A DNA stretch of 64,000 nucleotides from an uncultured Erysipelotrichaceae bacterium (GTDB taxonomy: Bacteria; Bacillota_I; Bacilli_A; RF39; UBA660). Shown piece after piece: positions 1,789 to 48,377 of this stretch (positions within the stretch are counted from its first letter, which is position 1; each line of letters starts with the position of its first letter). The translations under genes were made by a program, and so were the position numbers. The stretch covers positions 1-64,000 of the forward strand of contig CADAWN010000003.1 in assembly GCA_902791625.1 (NCBI GenBank), given 5' to 3'. The notes below the pieces were generated by a model, which saw only the letters and a program-made list of their open reading frames with translations, had not been told where the DNA came from and searched no databases.

Positions 1789-2901
1789 CTACTTTCTTTC
1801 TATATTGCCATTTCTTACTTCAAATATATATGCATTTTCTAAAGATTTTTTATTTATATTTTTGATATCAGTAGTTGTTATTATTGTTTGTATATCTTTC
1901 TGCACATATTTTAATAGTCTATTTCTCTTTTTTATATCTAATTCACTAAATATATCATCAAATAGTAATACTGGTTTCTTATTTAATTTTTCATTAAATA
2001 TATAAATTTCAGCTAACTTAAATGATAATATTGATACTTTTTGCTGACCTTGAGATCCATAGAATTTTAAGTTATTATTATCTAAAATAAAGGAAAAATC
2101 ATCTCTATGTGGACCAAACAATGTCATACCATTATTTAATTCTTTTTTATAATTATTATTAAATATAGAAATCATTTTATCTCTAATATACTCATCATCA
2201 AAATGATCTATTTCTATATTTGGTTCATAATTAACATATAAATTTTGATTAGTTGAACATATTTCATTGTAAATATTACTTATATTTTTATTAACAAAAT
2301 CAATATATTCTTTTCTCATTTTATAAATAATAATAGCTTTTTCTATCAATTTATCTGTAATAATATCAAAATATTTCTTATCAGCTAGTGAATTTGTGAA
2401 TAAAATTTTCAAATATTCATTTCGAGTTTTCAAAATTTTATTATATTCATTTAAAGTATTTAAATATAAATTAGATAATTGACTTATTTGTATGTTAAGT
2501 ATATTTCTTCTAATACTAGGGGAATTTTTAATTATTTCAAGATCATTTGGATTAAATGATATTACTATTAAATTTGAAATATAATTAGAATTTTTCTTAA
2601 TAACTGTATCATTTATTGATAATACTTTATTATTCTTTTCTACTTCTATTTTTAAATTTTTAATAATATCATTATCAACAACTTTTCCTTTAATTATTGC
2701 TTTATTTTTATCAAATTTTATTAAATCATCTTCATTAATTACTCTATAAGACTTTGTAATTGCTAAATACATAATTGCTTCAATGATATTTGTCTTACCT
2801 TGAGCATTATCTCCTATAAAAATATTCATATTATCTGTTAATTGGAGATTTAATTTATCATAATTTCTAAAATTTAATAAATTTAATTTAGTGATTTTCA
2901 T
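1789..2901 (-). CDS. recF: DNA replication/repair protein RecF
   Basis: SMC-like ATPase that with RecO and RecR loads RecA at single-strand gaps. The 370 residues have the family's usual length. The N-terminus [17 protein letters not shown] is typical, the Walker A is [14 protein letters not shown] (about residues 30-43), the signature region is [19 protein letters not shown], and the Walker B is [19 protein letters not shown] Shine-Dalgarno precedes ATG 2901. It is co-transcribed with gyrB. Its upstream neighbour is comK, not the S4-domain gene yaaA usual in Bacilli. Confidence 0.97.
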
Positions 2902-2998: not shown

Positions 2999-3053
2999 AA
3001 AAGAGAAAAAATTAAAATTTTTTAAAATTATTTGTCATTTTTTCTCTCTTTTA
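2999..3053 (-). terminator. Terminator of comK
   Basis: On the minus strand AGAGAAAAAA and TTTTTTCTCT form the arms of a long AT-rich hairpin followed by a T-run. The left arm overlaps the last comK codons (ERKNDK and stop). Confidence 0.55.
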
Positions 3054-3480
3054 GTAAATAACTAAGTCTAGTAGCCCTAAATATTTGATTTTGAATAGAT
3101 CTATATGATAAAGGTACAATAATTGATGTATTATTTAAAAATGTTATTTTTGTTGTATTAAATTCACATTCTTCATATTTCTTTATTTTATTAACTGCAA
3201 TCCACATACAATCCTCATCTTCTGCGGATAAAGTTGGAAAAAATACTATATTTCTTCCATCTTCTACAATTATAGGTAATTTATAGTTAGCTCCTATAAT
3301 ATTTTTTGATCCTTGTTTTCTACCTTCATAAGAACTACCAAAATATTTGCAACTATGGTCTATAATATTATAAGGTTTTTGATTAATTATATAATTCTTA
3401 TCATCTTCTAAAATCTTACTTTTTCCCCTATCTTCATACATAATTGCGAGTGTTCCCTCATTAATTTCATAATTATTCAT
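3028..3480 (-). CDS. comK: ComK-family competence transcription factor
   Basis: ComK is the master activator of DNA-uptake genes in Bacillus and binds paired AT-boxes as a tetramer. This 150-residue protein matches the family along its length: YEINEGTLAIMYED, then DHSCKYFGSSYEGRKQG (Bacillus has DRSCRFFGSSYAGRKAG), then FFPTLSAEDEDCMWI, then VPLSYRSIQNQIFRATRL. It is about 40 residues shorter at the C-terminus than B. subtilis ComK (192), the part involved there in multimerisation and MecA/ClpCP control. A GGGGG Shine-Dalgarno precedes ATG 3480. It lies between dnaN and recF, both on the same strand, with its own upstream region holding Spo0A-box-like repeats. Family assignment is from recognised motifs; the role here is inferred. 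Confidence 0.9.
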   Translation of the reverse strand: MNNYEINEGTLAIMYEDRGKSKILEDDKNYIINQKPYNIIDHSCKYFGSSYEGRKQGSKNIIGANYKLPIIVEDGRNIVFFPTLSAEDEDCMWIAVNKIKKYEECEFNTTKITFLNNTSIIVPLSYRSIQNQIFRATRLSYLLKERKNDK

Positions 3481-3494
3481 AAATTTCCCCCTGT

Positions 3495-3510
3495 GAAAGC
3501 TCTTGCTTTC
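3495..3510 (-). other. Hairpin in comK 5' leader
   Basis: GAAAGC / GCTTTC form a 6-bp stem (extendable by a base pair) with a 4-base loop, just upstream of the GGGGG Shine-Dalgarno. It could affect initiation or mRNA stability. It lacks a T-run, so it is not a terminator. Confidence 0.4.
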
Positions 3511-3534
3511 GAAAATAAATATAACATAAAGATT

Positions 3535-3561
3535 TGTCTAAATTTATCGAATTTTGTCGAA
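3535..3561 (-). promoter_or_regulatory. Three phased Spo0A-box-like heptamers upstream of comK
   Basis: Read on the plus strand: TGTCTAA (3535-3541), TATCGAA (3545-3551) and TGTCGAA (3555-3561), spaced exactly 10 bp. The last is a perfect 0A box (TGTCGAA); the others have one mismatch each. On the minus strand the 3535 copy doubles as a possible -35 TAGACA, with TATTTT 17 bp downstream (3517-3512). In B. subtilis Spo0A~P is known to bind the comK promoter directly, and this window also encodes Spo0A. Confidence 0.6.
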
Positions 3562-3577
3562 TAATATAAAAAAATAA

Positions 3578-3600
3578 ATATCCACAAAAATTGTGGATAT
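3578..3600 (-). terminator. Terminator of dnaN, palindrome of DnaA-box-like halves
   Basis: ATATCCACAA (3578-3587) and TTGTGGATAT (3591-3600) form a perfect 10-bp stem with a 3-base loop. On the minus strand it is followed by ATTTATTTTTTT, fitting termination downstream of dnaN. Each arm is one mismatch from the DnaA box TTATCCACA. Confidence 0.75.
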
Positions 3601-3607
3601 TTTTATT

Positions 3608-4732
3608 TTAATAAGTTCTTATAGGTAAAACTAATTGAGTAAGAGTTTCATCTTTTTCATTTTTTAATATAATAGGTTTTACTTCTCCTACATAATTAAT
3701 ATTTATTTCATCAGAATTAAATGATTTTAAAGCTTCCATCATATATTTAGCACTAAATGAAATTCTAATATCATCTTTATTACTCTTTTTAACTTTCATT
3801 TTTTCTTCTACTCTACCTATTTCTAATGAAGATGATTTAAGGATTAATGTATCCCCTTCTGTTTCTAAAGTAACAATATTTTTATCTTTATCACTTGTAA
3901 GAATACTTGCTCTATCAATAACACTATAAAATTCATCTAAATTAGCAGTTATAATTAAATTAGCTTCATTAGGCATTAAATTACTTGTATTTGGATAAGT
4001 ACCATTAATTAATCTACTTTGAAATAATAAATTATTATATTTAAATAATATTTTATTATTAAATATATGAATTTCAACAATTTCATCATCATCATATACT
4101 AATCTAGAAAATTCTACTATATTATGACTAGGTATTACTATATTATAGTTTTCATCTATACTTTTATCTAATTTTACAACTTTACGTGCTAATCTATAGC
4201 TATCAGTTGAATTACATTCAAGTACATCCCCTACTATATTAAAGTTAAGACCTGTAAGTACTGGTTTAGTTTCCTCATTAGAAGCAGCAAAAGCAGTTTG
4301 ATTAACTAATTCTTTAAATATATTAGCTTTTACATCTATTTTCTTCTTACTCTCTTCTAAATTAATTGATGGATATTCACTTTCAGCTATACCATTAAGA
4401 TTAAATTCACTATTTTGTGTATAAATAAGTATTTTTAATTCATCTATAACTTCTATATTAATAAATTCATCTGGTAATTTTCTTACTATATCTAATATAT
4501 ATTTACCTTGAATAATAATATTTCCCTCTTCTTCTACTTTAACATCATCATTATTACAATTAATAAATGTCTGAATAGTTATATCATTATCAGATGCAGT
4601 TAATGTCAATTTCTTTTTAGAAAGTTCAAATTTTATACCTGCTAAAACTGGTATTAAGTTCTTTGTAGAGATTGCTTTTGAAACTTTATTTAAAGCTTCT
4701 AGTAAAATATCTTTTTTAATAGTTAATTTCAT
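3608..4732 (-). CDS. dnaN: DNA polymerase III beta sliding clamp
   Basis: Ring-shaped processivity clamp of DNA polymerase III. The 374 residues are normal length. It begins MKLTIKKDILLEALNKVSKAIS, and the domain-2 pattern TDSYRLARKVVKL is the conserved TDSxRL stretch. It ends in QLVLPIRTY, the conserved (L)P(x)R C-terminus. The start ATG 4732 has a GAAGGA Shine-Dalgarno. It lies downstream of dnaA on the same strand, with a DnaA-box-containing gap of 138 bases between them. Confidence 0.97.
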   Translation of the reverse strand: MKLTIKKDILLEALNKVSKAISTKNLIPVLAGIKFELSKKKLTLTASDNDITIQTFINCNNDDVKVEEEGNIIIQGKYILDIVRKLPDEFINIEVIDELKILIYTQNSEFNLNGIAESEYPSINLEESKKKIDVKANIFKELVNQTAFAASNEETKPVLTGLNFNIVGDVLECNSTDSYRLARKVVKLDKSIDENYNIVIPSHNIVEFSRLVYDDDEIVEIHIFNNKILFKYNNLLFQSRLINGTYPNTSNLMPNEANLIITANLDEFYSVIDRASILTSDKDKNIVTLETEGDTLILKSSSLEIGRVEEKMKVKKSNKDDIRISFSAKYMMEALKSFNSDEININYVGEVKPIILKNEKDETLTQLVLPIRTY

Positions 4733-6299: not shown

Positions 6300-6480
6300 A
6301 TGTTAAAAAAATAAACATAAAATTAAAAAAATTTTTAATTCACAGATTATTCACAGACTTATTAACAATTAATATCTATATATAATAACAAAAATTATAC
6401 TTTTCCACATAATCCACAAATTTTTAATAAACATATATGATAAAAGTTATCAACAAGTATGTGAATTTTGTGAATAAAAA
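6300..6480. other. oriC: AT-rich origin with near-consensus DnaA boxes
   Basis: Intergenic region between divergent dnaA and rpmH, where coding strand switches on both sides. Near-matches to TTATCCACA: TTATTCACA (6347-6355), TTTTCCACA (6401-6409), TAATCCACA (6410-6418), TTATCAACA (6447-6455) and, inverted, TGTGAATAA (6469-6477). Weaker sites lie at 6336-6344 and 6460-6468. No perfect box is present. Strong AT richness fits an unwinding element. Location next to dnaA and the strand switch make this the likely origin. Confidence 0.85.
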
Positions 6481-19477: not shown

Positions 19478-19945
19478 ATGCGTAAGAGACGTGCAGTAAA
19501 GAGAGATGTTCTTGCTGATCCAATATATAATTCAAAAGTAGTTACAAAACTAATTAATACAATTATGTTAGATGGTAAAAAAGGAATCGCTCAAACTATT
19601 GTTTATGATGCATTTGAACAAGTTAAAACTAAAACTGGTAGTGATCCACTAGAAGTATTTACAAAAGCTATGGAAAACATTATACCAGAAGTTGAAGTTA
19701 AATCTCGCCGTGTAGGTGGATCTAACTATCAAGTACCAATCGAAGTAAGTCCAGCTAGAGGACAAGCATTAGGACTTCGTTGGTTAACATCAATCGCTCG
19801 TACTCGTGGTGGTAAAGGTATGGCTGATAACTTAGCTAATGAAATTATGGATGCCGCTAACGGAACAGGTGGAGCAGTTAAAAAACGTGAGGATACTCAC
19901 AGAATGGCTGAAGCTAATAAAGCTTTCGCACATTATAAATGGTAG
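19478..19945 (+). CDS. rpsG: 30S ribosomal protein S7
   Basis: Primary 16S rRNA-binding protein that organises the 30S head. 155 residues with [22 protein letters not shown], then [17 protein letters not shown] and LGLRWL. Strong GGGAGGAAATAAT Shine-Dalgarno. In E. coli S7 represses the str operon, so it is a candidate ligand for the leader. FusA starts 11 bases after its stop. Confidence 0.97.
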
Positions 19946-19956
19946 GAGGAAAAAAT

Positions 19957-22026
19957 ATGGCAAGAGATACTTCACTAGAACAAACTAGAAATCTTGGTAT
20001 AATGGCTCACATTGATGCTGGTAAAACAACAACAACAGAGCGTGTATTATATCATACTGGTAAGATTCATAAAATAGGTGAAACTCATGACGGTGAAAGT
20101 CAAATGGACTGGATGGTTCAAGAACAAGAAAGAGGTATTACAATTACATCAGCAGCAACAACTGCTTATTGGAAAGGATATCGTTTTAATATAATTGATA
20201 CTCCAGGACACGTAGACTTCACAATTGAAGTTAGTCGTAGTTTGCGTGTATTAGATGGTGCTGTAGCACTTATCGATGCACAAGCTGGTGTTGAACCACA
20301 AACTGAAACAGTTTGGAGACAAGCTTCTGAATTCAAAGTTCCTCGTATAATTTTTGCAAATAAAATGGATAAAATGGGTGCTAATTTTGAATTCAGTTTA
20401 CAAACAATTAGTAACAGATTAGGAGTTAATGCTGCTCCTATCGAATGGCCAATTGGTGCTGAAGATGATTTTAGAGGTGTAGTTGACCTAGTAACAATGA
20501 AAGCATATGAATATGATGGTAAACCTGAAGAAGAAGCTAAAGAAATTGAAATTCCTGAAGATTTAAAAGGTATTGCTGAAGAAAAGAGAAATGCATTAAT
20601 TGAAGCAGTTGCTGAATTTGATGATGACTTAATGGAAGCATATCTTGAAGGTGGAGAAATTAAAGTTGATCAACTTAAGAAAGCTATCCGTACAGGAGTT
20701 TTAAAAGCTGAGTTCTTCCCAGTAATGTGTGGAACTGCTTTAGGAAATAAAGGTATCAAATTATTACTTGATGCAGTTATCGATTATTTACCAAGTCCAC
20801 TTGATATTGCTTCAATTAAAGGTGTTGACTTAAATGGTAATGAAACTGAAAGACATCCAAGTGATAGTGAACCATTCAGTGCTTTAGCATTTAAAGTTAT
20901 GACAGATCCATTCGTTGGACGTTTAACATTCTTTAGAGTATACTCTGGACACTTAAATAGTGGTAGTTATGTACTTAACTCTACTAAAGATGAAAAAGAA
21001 AGAATTGGACGTATCTTATTGATGCACGCTAATACTCGTAAAGAAATTTCAGAAGTATATACAGGTGATATCGCTGCTGCAGTAGGATTAAAAGCTACTA
21101 CTACAGGAGATACATTATGTGATGAAAAGAAACCAGTTATTCTTGAAAGTTTAGTAGTTCCTGAACCAGTTATTGAATTAGCTGTTGAACCTAAATCTAA
21201 AGCTGATCAAGATAAAATGGCTTTAGCATTACAAAAATTAGCAGAAGAAGATCCAACATTTAAAGTTCACACAGATCATGAAACTGGTCAAACAGTTATC
21301 GCTGGTATGGGTGAGTTACACTTAGACGTACTTGTTGATCGTATGAAACGTGAATTTAACGTAGAAGCAAATGTTGGTCGTCCACAAGTTGCTTATCGTG
21401 AAACAATTAAGGCTGCTGGTGAATGTGAAGGTAAATACATTAAACAATCAGGTGGTCGTGGACAATACGGACATGTTTGGATTAAATTTGAGCCAAACAC
21501 AGATAAAGGTTATGAATTCGTTGATCAAATCGTTGGTGGTGTAGTTCCTCGTGAATATATCCCAGTTGTTGATAAAGGATTACAAGAAGCTATGCAAACT
21601 GGTATTCTAGCAGGATATCCAATGATAGATGTTAAAGCTACATTATATGATGGTTCTTACCATGATGTAGACTCTAACGAAATGGCATTCAAGATTGCTG
21701 CAAGCTTAGCTTTAAAAGAAGCTAAGAAAAACTGTCAACCAGTTTTACTTGAACCAATTATGAAAGTAGACGTTACTACACCAGAAGAATATTTTGGTAA
21801 CGTAATGGGTGATTTAACTGGAAGACGTGGTAAACCACTTGGTCAAGAAACTCAATTAGGAGCTGTTAAACTAAGTGCTATGGTACCACTTTCAGAGATG
21901 TTTGGTTATGCAACATCACTACGTAGTAATACTCAAGGTAGAGCTAACTTCGTTATGTTCTTTGATCATTATGAAGAAGTACCTAAGAATATTAGTGAAG
22001 AAATTATTAAGAAAAGTGGCAATTAA
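19957..22026 (+). CDS. fusA: Translation elongation factor G
   Basis: GTPase that drives ribosomal translocation. G1 [14 protein letters not shown]2 region [12 protein letters not shown]3 [10 protein letters not shown]4 NKMDKMG. Domain IV has the [14 protein letters not shown] stretch and C-terminal [25 protein letters not shown]. 689 residues from ATG 19957 after TAGGAGG; the frame extends six codons further upstream, inside rpsG, without support. Codons for Arg (CGT) are richer here than in neighbours, as expected for a highly expressed gene. Confidence 0.98.
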
Positions 22027-30743: not shown

Positions 30744-30744
30744 T

Positions 30745-30785
30745 TTGACAAGATTTTACTTTTCGACAAAACTTGTCATTTTTTA
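30745..30785 (+). terminator. Terminator of pgk-X-tpiA, with a 0A box in its loop
   Basis: TGACAAG (30746-30752) pairs with CTTGTCA (30772-30778), followed by a T-run. The 19-base loop holds TTCGACA (30762-30768). Confidence 0.55.
30762..30768 (-). promoter_or_regulatory. Perfect Spo0A box upstream of spo0A
   Basis: TTCGACA, the reverse complement of the 0A box TGTCGAA, about 45 bp upstream of a -10 TATAAT (30812-30817; weak -35 TACAAA 30789-30794). TTTGACA (30744-30750) is a one-mismatch copy upstream. Placement fits autoregulation of spo0A, known in B. subtilis. Confidence 0.5.
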
Positions 30786-30850
30786 TTCTACAAAAAAATA
30801 CAAAAGTATTATATAATGAAAAAGCGTAGTAGTATATGAAAGGAGATATA

Positions 30851-31627
30851 ATGGGAAAAACTCGCGTACTAATGGTAGATGATAACATCGAATTAGTGAA
30901 TATGGTAAAGGAGTATTTTAGTAGTAATAAAGAAATAACAATTAACTTAGAAGCACATAATGGAGAAGAAGGTCTTAATATAATTGAACATAGAAAAGAC
31001 GAATATGATCTTGTATTACTAGATCTTGTTATGCCTAAAAAAGATGGTAAATCAGTATTAGAAGAAATGAGAAGTAAGAATATTGATAAAAAAGTAATAG
31101 TGTTAACATCTTATAATACACCTGATATGATTAGAAAAGTATCAGAGTTAGGTATTAGTTATTTTATTTTAAAACCTTTTGAACTAAAAGAACTAGAAAA
31201 GACTATTAAAGAAGTAGTTGAACCAGAAAAGTTTGGTAATAAATCAATAGATTTATTTCATAATAACTTAGAAAAATCTATTACTAAAGTATTACATGAA
31301 TTAGGTGTTCCTTCACATATTAAAGGATATCAATATATAAGAGATGGTATATCAATGATATATAATAAACCAGGTATGATTGGTGGAATAACAAAAGAGT
31401 TGTATCCAGATATAGCAAAGAAATATGATACTACAGTATCACGTGTAGAACGTGCAATAAGACATGCGATAGAAGTAAGTTGGAACAGAGGTAACTGGGA
31501 CTTAATGGAAGAAATATTTGGTCACAGTGTTGATATAGATAAAGCAAAACCAACAAACTCAGAGTTTATAGTAACTGTTGCTGATAAACTAAGATTAGAG
31601 TTTCATGAAACAGCTGTAATTTTATAA
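30851..31627 (+). CDS. spo0A: Stage 0 sporulation response regulator Spo0A
   Basis: Master regulator of entry into sporulation. Receiver domain with acidic pair Asp10-Asp11 (VLMVDDN), phosphoacceptor Asp58 (LVLLDLVMP), the VLTSYN switch and KPFE lysine. The output domain carries the highly conserved DNA-recognition region [21 protein letters not shown] and ends [16 protein letters not shown]. 258 residues from ATG 30851 after AGGAGA at 6 bases; the ATG at 30836 has no Shine-Dalgarno. B. subtilis Spo0A is 267 residues. No phosphorelay gene (Spo0F, Spo0B, KinA) is in the window. Confidence 0.96.
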
Positions 31628-47474: not shown

Positions 47475-48377
47475 ATGAAAAGGGAAATATTACCAATAGG
47501 TACAATTTGTGAATTAGATAATAGTAAAATAATAATGATTATAGGATATAAAAATATTTCAATAGATAATAAAAATATATCTATAAAAGATTATGTAGGA
47601 GTAAAATATCCAGAAGGAACTTTATCTACTGAAGAATATAAATTTGATAATGAGAATATAAAATCAATATTATATATGGGTTATGTAGATGAAAAATTTG
47701 AGAATATAAAAGCTTTATTAAATGATGAAGTAGATTATGAAGAGAAAAAAATGGAATCTACATATACATTTGATGAAAATGGAGTTATTACTTCTGAAAC
47801 TAAAACACCAGTAAAGAATCCCTTCTCTGTGGAAGAACCAAAAGTAGAAAAATTAGATGAAGATCCTGGTGATTGGCCAATATTTAAGAATATAGAATTT
47901 GATGAAAATGGTGTTGTTGTATCAGCAGAGGAGTATACGCCTTCCAATATACCAGATCAATCAGATGTTTTAGGACCAAAATATCAATTTGATGAAAATG
48001 GAGTTATTATAGGTGTCGAAGATGAAGAAACACAAAATGAAAAAATAACATTAGTTAATGAGTCTGAACCAGTTTATGAGTTTGATGCAAATGGTGTTGT
48101 AGTAGGAGTAAAAGAAGAAGATTCTACTCAAGAAGAACAAACAGAAGCAAGTGAACCAGAATATGAATTTGATGAAAATGGCATTGTTGTAGGAGTAAAA
48201 GAAAAAGAATCTGCTAAAGAAGAACAAACAGAAGCAAGTGAACCAGAATATGAATTTGATGAAAACGGCGTTGTTGTAGGAGTAAAAGAAAAAGAACCTA
48301 CTAAAGAAGAACAAAAAGATACAAGTGAACCAAAATATGAGTTTGATGAAAATGGAATGGTTATAGGTGTAGAATAG
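47475..48377 (+). CDS. DUF4176-type protein with acidic 29-residue repeats
   Basis: 300 residues. The N-terminal about 85 residues match DUF4176, common in T7SS loci (REILPIGTICELDN, MIIGYK, DYVGVKYPEGTLSTEEY). The rest repeats the phrase Y-x-FDENGVVVGV seven times in acidic linkers. The last three intervals are each exactly 29 residues (87 bp, tyrosine codons at 48075, 48162, 48249 and 48336) and near identical, a recent tandem expansion. Cytoplasmic by appearance. Ends the second T7SS group. The repeated region could bind something in series, but no function is known. Confidence 0.75.
   Translation: MKREILPIGTICELDNSKIIMIIGYKNISIDNKNISIKDYVGVKYPEGTLSTEEYKFDNENIKSILYMGYVDEKFENIKALLNDEVDYEEKKMESTYTFDENGVITSETKTPVKNPFSVEEPKVEKLDEDPGDWPIFKNIEFDENGVVVSAEEYTPSNIPDQSDVLGPKYQFDENGVIIGVEDEETQNEKITLVNESEPVYEFDANGVVVGVKEEDSTQEEQTEASEPEYEFDENGIVVGVKEKESAKEEQTEASEPEYEFDENGVVVGVKEKEPTKEEQKDTSEPKYEFDENGMVIGVE
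47755..48377 (+). repeat. Tandem coding repeats, 87-bp unit at the 3' end
   Basis: Seven copies of the FDENG phrase. The last three and a half have exact 87-bp spacing and high identity; earlier copies are spaced 87-135 bp and more diverged. Copy number could vary between strains. Confidence 0.8.

Follow-up and report, generated by a model that had tools for sequence, protein, structure and literature searches.

Phased 0A-box-like repeats upstream of comK suggest a direct Spo0A-comK link in an uncultured bacterium of the order RF39

Described promoters and the comK locus of the window

In Bacillus subtilis the promoters of spoIIG, spoIIA and spoIIE are activated by Spo0A, and their 0A boxes lie near the site of RNA polymerase. 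Pho-box promoters, which are bound by PhoB or PhoP, carry head-to-tail repeats one helical turn apart in place of the -35 element. A direct link from Spo0A to comK is already known from B. subtilis, where the comK promoter (PcomK) possesses the boxes A1-A3, acting largely against Rok, and the boxes R1/R2, which repress the sigma-A promoter, R1 lying over the -35 (PMC3297582, in excerpt). The 0A core is TGTCGAA, and its specifically contacted bases are G2, C4 and G5 (PMC3485338, in excerpt). Uncultured orders related to Erysipelotrichales, among them RF39, are predicted to sporulate (PMC10868615, in excerpt). Among open-licence papers, none on comK or competence in the host group was found.

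The window analysed here is the whole 64,000-nucleotide stretch of DNA from an uncultured Erysipelotrichaceae bacterium, belonging to a family (hereafter the host family) of which further genomes were compared. The proposed Spo0A-comK link is as in B. subtilis, in that Spo0A boxes in the comK promoter would tie the sporulation regulator directly to competence, whereas the promoter architecture differs. In the family the array is contiguous and head-to-tail, takes up the position of the -35 and leaves 11 bp to the -10, and comK sits between dnaN and recF; separate activating and repressing boxes around a -35, the B. subtilis type, were not found at the family comK. Unlike spoIIG, spoIIA and spoIIE, the family reuses one rigid module of two to three boxes and an N11 spacer at comK, at a histidine kinase gene and at other genes. 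The pho-box promoters differ from it in the regulator family, the box sequence and the genes concerned.

The comK gene (3028..3480, minus strand) encodes a competence transcription factor of 150 aa, which matches Pfam ComK (PF06338) over residues 2-147 with an E-value of 7.9e-45 and 152.8 bits (cut-off 22.3). This bears out the initial annotation, which had placed a ComK homologue between recF and dnaN. The conserved upstream neighbour is dnaN (3608..4732, minus strand; Pfam and synteny), the conserved downstream neighbour recF (1789..2901, minus strand; Pfam SMC_N, RecF/RecN/SMC, 2.1e-18, and synteny), the name RecF being based on size and place. On the minus strand the region upstream of comK contains, in this order, the array, 11 nt, a TATATT preceded by TGT, a hairpin leader, AGGGGG and the ATG. 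The putative extended -10 TGTTATATT occupies 3518..3526 (minus strand), with the hexamer TATATT starting 11 nt after the proximal box, and the Shine-Dalgarno-like AGGGGG occupies 3487..3492 (minus strand). Folding places the leader hairpin, with a GAAAGC/GCTTTC stem, just before the Shine-Dalgarno (3495..3510, minus strand). Of 34 folded family comK leaders, 16 exceed 95% of shuffles in stability (p<=0.05), and in six rows picked by eye every pair of the stem is kept, two of them with compensatory changes on both sides.

A terminator-like hairpin with a 12-pair stem (3576..3602, both strands) is located between dnaN and the comK promoter; the scan for such hairpins found two, against a mean of 0.0 (sd 0.1) in shuffles. 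Since this hairpin separates dnaN from the comK promoter, comK probably needs a promoter of its own. The arms of the hairpin are an inverted ATATCCACA, one mismatch from the DnaA box, and the same-genus locus L002 possesses a similar hairpin. Further away, five one-mismatch DnaA-box-like sites and a GC-skew switch are found at 6347-6477 of the window, upstream of dnaA, a region that is likely oriC.

The array itself consists of three plus-strand heptamers, TGTCTAA (3535-3541), TATCGAA (3545-3551) and TGTCGAA (3555-3561), in exact 10-bp steps and one orientation; the initial annotation had reported these repeats with coordinates, orientation and 10-bp spacing all exact. Read in the sense of comK, on the minus strand, the array is TTCGACA-aaa-TTCGATA-aat-TTAGACA. 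The distal box TTCGACA (3555..3561) is perfect and would lie at about -50 to -44, the middle box TTCGATA (3545..3551) has one mismatch and would lie at about -40 to -34, and the proximal box TTAGACA (3535..3541), likewise with one mismatch, at about -30 to -24. With 0, 1 and 1 mismatches all three pass the yardstick for a 0A box (TGTCGAA with at most two mismatches), which is that of the putative boxes of PcomK (PMC3297582, in excerpt). Contacted bases are missing in two of the three boxes of the window, namely G2 in the middle box and G5 in the proximal box, which counts against activation by Spo0A.

A phased triple with at most two mismatches of 21 occurs once in the window and in none of 200 dinucleotide-preserving shuffles; with at most three mismatches there is still one in the window and none in another 200 shuffles. 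Single 0A boxes, by comparison, show no enrichment in the 64 kb, neither as perfect TGTCGAA (3 vs 1.7 expected), in line with the earlier caveat that single sites of this kind arise by chance, nor with up to one mismatch (102 vs 104 expected). The two other perfect sites listed in the initial annotation fared differently: the one at 30762 falls into the spo0A promoter region, while the one at 48014 is probably due to chance, since it sits inside a repeat-protein reading frame (47475-48377). Judged from the sequence, the repeats upstream of comK are probably 0A boxes that bind Spo0A and through which Spo0A~P would directly activate comK.

The array and its presumed regulator across the host family

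Among the 35 comK loci of the family, that of the window included, 20 have the triple with 10-bp spacing in their upstream region at a shuffle p<=0.01, and 24 have it at p<=0.05. Conservation of the boxes at comK orthologues had been set beforehand as the point on which the initial reading could fail. It turned out wide but incomplete, as 11 of the 35 loci have no significant triple, among them the same-genus G003 and the locus L026, which is cut by a contig end. In other families, none of eight comK-like loci has the triple (p 0.145 or more).

The composite pattern TTCGACA-N3-TTCGACA-N11-TATAAT is matched with at most 5 mismatches of 20 in 19/35 comK loci, against 8/1426 background windows taken from the same loci. 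Fourteen of these 19 loci carry TG before the -10 and 12 a third box (<=1 mismatch), compared with 2/26 and 3/26 loci of the kinase gene described below. In an alignment of 19 comK promoters, a partly different set of cases selected for a gap of 11, conservation is seen in the CGACA cores, the TG and the TATAAT. Distances from box to box (<=1 mismatch) in the 61 stretches upstream of comK and the kinase gene are 10 bp in 24 instances and 20 bp in 15, and any other distance occurs once at most. Ties in the choice of the -10 were broken in favour of a gap of 11; in this AT-rich DNA the comK composite is matched with at most 4 mismatches 12 times at gap 11, 10 times at gap 21 and 8 times at gap 16. 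A -35 is absent: the best TTGACA match 16-18 bp away from the -10 shows at least 4 mismatches in 18/19 comK and 25/26 kinase promoters, against about 43% of shuffled positions, though the lack of a -35 is partly explained by the boxes occupying that place.

Both dnaN and recF flank comK in 27/35 family loci. Six loci show one flanking gene only, dnaN in L037-L041 because the stretch was short and recF in L026 because its contig ends, and neither gene was found in the stretches of L016 and L019. In L003, L008, L011 and L020 dnaN is 248-1146 nt off. The boxes remain with comK where dnaN is removed by this distance (L003, L008, L011) as well as where no dnaN or recF was found (L016).

The window also contains spo0A (30851..31627, plus strand), with receiver and Spo0A_C domains (TIGR02875, 281.7 bits, cut-off 200). 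In an alignment of the DNA-binding domain its recognition helix is unchanged relative to Bacillus Spo0A (1lq1), and the helix is nearly invariant among the aligned family rows. It clearly differs in G008 (SSIERAISR) and in G025, whose frame is partial and divergent; small changes occur in the second copy of G004, in G010, in G027 and in the first copy of G031. Three 0A-box-like sites precede spo0A in the window, TTTGACA at 30744, TTCGACA at 30762 and TTCTACA at 30786 (30744..30792, plus strand). They do not follow the N3/N11 layout, and spo0A may regulate itself through them. Across the family a two-box match is found upstream of spo0A at p<=0.01 in 19/34 loci. For this count no start was obtained at one of 35 loci, some script-chosen starts are doubtful, and in some pairs one box is good and the other poor.

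Spo0A_C is detected at E<=0.001 in 34/37 family genomes (own included), the matches of G036 and G025 being partial, and comK in 35/37 (own included). SpoIVA and SpoIIGA are found in 35/37 each and ComEC in 34/37; together with the Spo0A count these numbers indicate that the family likely forms spores and possesses a DNA-uptake channel. Its gene content resembles that described for RF39 (PMC10868615, in excerpt). Good comK boxes are accompanied by no Spo0A_C match in G017 and G035, and strong ones by only a partial, divergent Spo0A frame in G025, which counts against the Spo0A reading; at an assembly completeness of about 90% (G017), 88% (G035) and 90% (G025), loss of Spo0A is indistinguishable from an assembly gap in these three genomes. 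In G008, a single case, the triple at comK is weak, with 7 of 21 positions mismatched (p 0.02), spo0A is not preceded by a pair (p 0.8), and matches to SpoIVA, SpoIIGA and the kinase are all absent.

A histidine kinase and other genes with the same layout

A histidine kinase gene is located behind a tandem 0A-box promoter on contig 11 of G000, the genome of the window (19827-21062; L089, L183). Its product contains HisKA (3.4e-12) and HATPase_c (1.9e-24) domains, which were found in the two members scanned, and membrane segments identified by eye. A search over 60 genomes yielded 26 loci of the family that were treated as orthologues, with G023 and G024 (C-terminal domain only) and a second copy in G006 left out. 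The two-box pair precedes the kinase gene at p<=0.03 in 26/26 loci, and so does the composite with at most 5 mismatches of 20, against 3/1486 background windows. A Spo0A-like receiver lies near the kinase gene in 1/26 loci (flanks of up to 1.5 kb, some shorter, so that distant receivers could be missed), which suggests that the kinase may serve Spo0A. The shared promoter makes this membrane histidine kinase a good candidate for the phosphate donor of Spo0A. In a 2024 survey, the sporulation sensor kinase is among the genes absent from Erysipelotrichales (PMC10868615, in excerpt). Several relatives possess a small gene just upstream of the kinase gene, and the one scanned is PTS_EIIB-like.

Kinase and comK boxes tend to occur together. 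Boxes at p<=0.05 are present in 20/25 cases with the kinase vs 4/10 without (Fisher p 0.04), boxes at p<=0.01 in 17/25 vs 3/10 (Fisher p 0.06), the test being weakened by shared ancestry. In the Spo0A tree (34 rows, five long branches; G025 and genomes without a Spo0A row left out), the six genomes that lack both the kinase and significant comK boxes share a single weakly supported branch (82/71) with the box-bearing G015. Taken together, the labels require 9 changes on this tree vs 13.2 in shuffles, a value as low being reached in 0/200.

In the own genome, the best two matches to the two-box pattern (1 mismatch) are comK and the histidine kinase site. The same pattern with three mismatches and without a -10 stays below its control (36 matches vs 91 with the reversed pattern). 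A pair with two mismatches (L093) precedes a small SPOR-like protein (no Pfam match) upstream of radC. The matches L092 and L095 lie inside open frames, and L091 and L094 were also inspected.

In 117 genomes of the family, each from a different genus, the composite with at most three mismatches gives 201 matches in 82 genomes, and the reversed pattern 13 matches in 12. Ninety match loci were read, 30 taken automatically (9 from earlier-used genomes) and 60 chosen among the matches listed, all 60 from genomes not used earlier. Twenty-six of the 90 are situated before the kinase gene (4 from earlier-used genomes), 10 before comK and 6 before spo0A (1 from an earlier-used genome); the other 48 are unlabelled and include SirA (PF10747, 2 loci), AgrB (PF04647, 3 loci) and SpoIIGA (2 loci), all at three mismatches. 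In B. subtilis, production of SirA is under the control of Spo0A~P (PMC4285326, in excerpt). That the module turns up again at spo0A and at known Spo0A targets is the strongest argument for taking the repeats as Spo0A boxes. Three loci stand before SPOR-like proteins (L352 and L362, with SPOR below the Pfam cut-off, and L359, by eye). In 27/90 of the loci read there is no open frame of at least 60 aa starting within 220 nt downstream, and 5 of these 27 overlie open frames.

At the AgrB sites (L370, L376, L387) both boxes of the pair are perfect and the gene follows after 78-177 nt, with no good -10 at N11. A fourth AgrB gene (L179), 240 nt downstream of an array, came from a covariance search of 23 family and 14 other genomes, with a model built from 19 selected comK promoters and E-values that are rough owing to a shortened calibration. 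The location of AgrB-type peptide-processing genes 78-240 nt after 0A-box arrays suggests Spo0A control of an agr-like signal. Upstream of spoIIGA, which was tried as a positive control, a tandem pair with at most three mismatches is present in only 2/30 loci read. Upstream of spoIIAA (29 of 30 loci, L251 left out; 8/29 from other families), TTTTGTCGAA-like (TGTCGAA-type) sites in the opposite orientation were seen by eye in several loci.

Throughout the class, the module with at most two mismatches occurs in 36/247 genomes, while the reversed pattern gives a single match across the 247. It is present in 18/31 family genomes vs 18/216 other genomes of the class, and is thus commoner in the host family without being exclusive to it. 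On reading, none of the 18 non-family loci (L393-L410) matched the references for comK, the kinase or Spo0A, and four of them overlie open frames; use of the module at comK was seen in the host family only. In L395 and L397, from another family (f8), the module lies about 110 nt before SpoVS-like genes (by eye). G118 contains 12 module matches. A perfect copy (L384, G077 contig 15) precedes an MvaI/BcnI-type restriction endonuclease gene. G123 carries many near-identical copies of TTCGACATTTTTCGACATGGACTTATGTTATAGT on several contigs (L389, L390, L392), the copy of L392 being located before a PD-(D/E)XK-family transposase-like gene (PF12784). The near-identical copies of G123 suggest that repeated genes may have carried the module along as they spread.

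Alternative readings and a proposed circuit

The boxes with their spacing and conservation, the recurrence at other Spo0A-type targets and the conserved DNA-reading helix of Spo0A can be read directly from the genomes, and they have to be weighed against several other explanations. Because the boxes cover the -35 region, Spo0A might repress comK, the array blocking RNA polymerase there and closing competence once sporulation starts. R1 of PcomK represses in this way from over the -35 (PMC3297582, in excerpt), and the spo0A boxes of B. subtilis were modelled as mainly repressive (PMC12090719, in excerpt). At the family comK, however, no -35 is present to block, the fixed helical phase to the -10, common with the kinase gene, fits activation better, and the module is also found at sirA and spoIIGA (3 mismatches), genes which sporulation should need on. 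Low and then high Spo0A~P could, moreover, both activate and repress comK. On balance we consider repression unlikely. It is very unlikely that the repeats are the sites of another regulator, such as ComK itself or an unrelated response regulator. The K-box (AAAA-N5-TTTT), the element of ComK autoactivation in B. subtilis, is somewhat enriched upstream of comK, with 14 matches in the 35 loci vs 6.1 in shuffles (sd 3.0, maximum 16), and G017, G035 and G025 have boxes while no intact canonical Spo0A was found in them; but the heptamer has the sequence of the 0A core and stands before spo0A, sirA and spoIIGA as well, and G008 pairs an altered Spo0A helix with a weak comK triple (one case).

The proximity of comK to dnaN and the DnaA-box-like inverted repeat at 3578-3600 bring to mind a service of the boxes to the replication origin, in which Spo0A limits initiation near oriC and comK is a bystander, as Spo0A~P of B. 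subtilis binds oriC boxes overlapping DnaA boxes (PMC4285326, in excerpt). We regard this as highly improbable, since the cluster of DnaA-box-like sites and the GC-skew switch are upstream of dnaA, around 6347-6477, and the boxes are placed by their distance to the comK -10, move with comK and form the same module at other genes. Scarcely credible, finally, are chance repeats or a plain sigma-A promoter with the proximal box as its -35 (TAGACA-N17-TATTTT). The latter is a 9-of-12 match to sigma-70 in the window, and the stretch contains 9 such sites vs 7.8 expected; no triple arises in the shuffles (0/200), which argues against chance. With a gap of 17 (<=5 mismatches) 19 kinase and 5 comK loci are matched vs 26/26 and 19/35 at gap 11, and a plain -35 is disfavoured because the family keeps 11, not 17, bp to the -10.

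Activation by Spo0A~P is the reading we prefer. Spo0A~P would occupy the comK boxes in head-to-tail fashion with one box to each helical turn, spanning about -50 to -24 in the place of the -35, assuming a +1 about 7 nt past the -10. It would most likely recruit RNA polymerase to a promoter with only an (extended) -10, so that comK would be turned on directly by Spo0A~P. The comK promoter would depend on its extended -10 plus one more box. A positive loop may result, in which the kinase gives rise to Spo0A~P, and Spo0A~P in turn to more kinase and to ComK. Binding by Spo0A, activation rather than repression and the partnership of kinase and Spo0A are what we infer. The Spo0A-to-ComK gate proposed in the initial annotation gains from the boxes in 24/35 loci, from the unchanged Spo0A helix and from the sites at other sporulation genes, whereas its B. 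subtilis architecture was not recovered. For the other suggestion of the initial annotation, that nearness to oriC could tie comK dosage to replication, the support is confined to the genes that neighbour comK.

A broader scheme is possible and is put forward tentatively, as it is somewhat more open to doubt than not. One rigid Spo0A module (two or three 0A boxes, N11, a -10 and no -35) may run sporulation, competence and peptide signalling in the family. A new membrane kinase would phosphorylate Spo0A, and a self-amplifying circuit would fire comK together with sirA and agr. Competence would then be an early output of the sporulation decision and not an alternative fate, and with the loss of the kinase the comK boxes would mostly be lost.

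For the biology of the family, the kinase is a concrete candidate for a sporulation sensor kinase, and since the spacing of the motif is fixed, part of the Spo0A regulon of such genomes can be predicted from sequence. The presence of another architecture in uncultured Bacilli with small genomes suggests that sporulation and competence became coupled either long ago or repeatedly.
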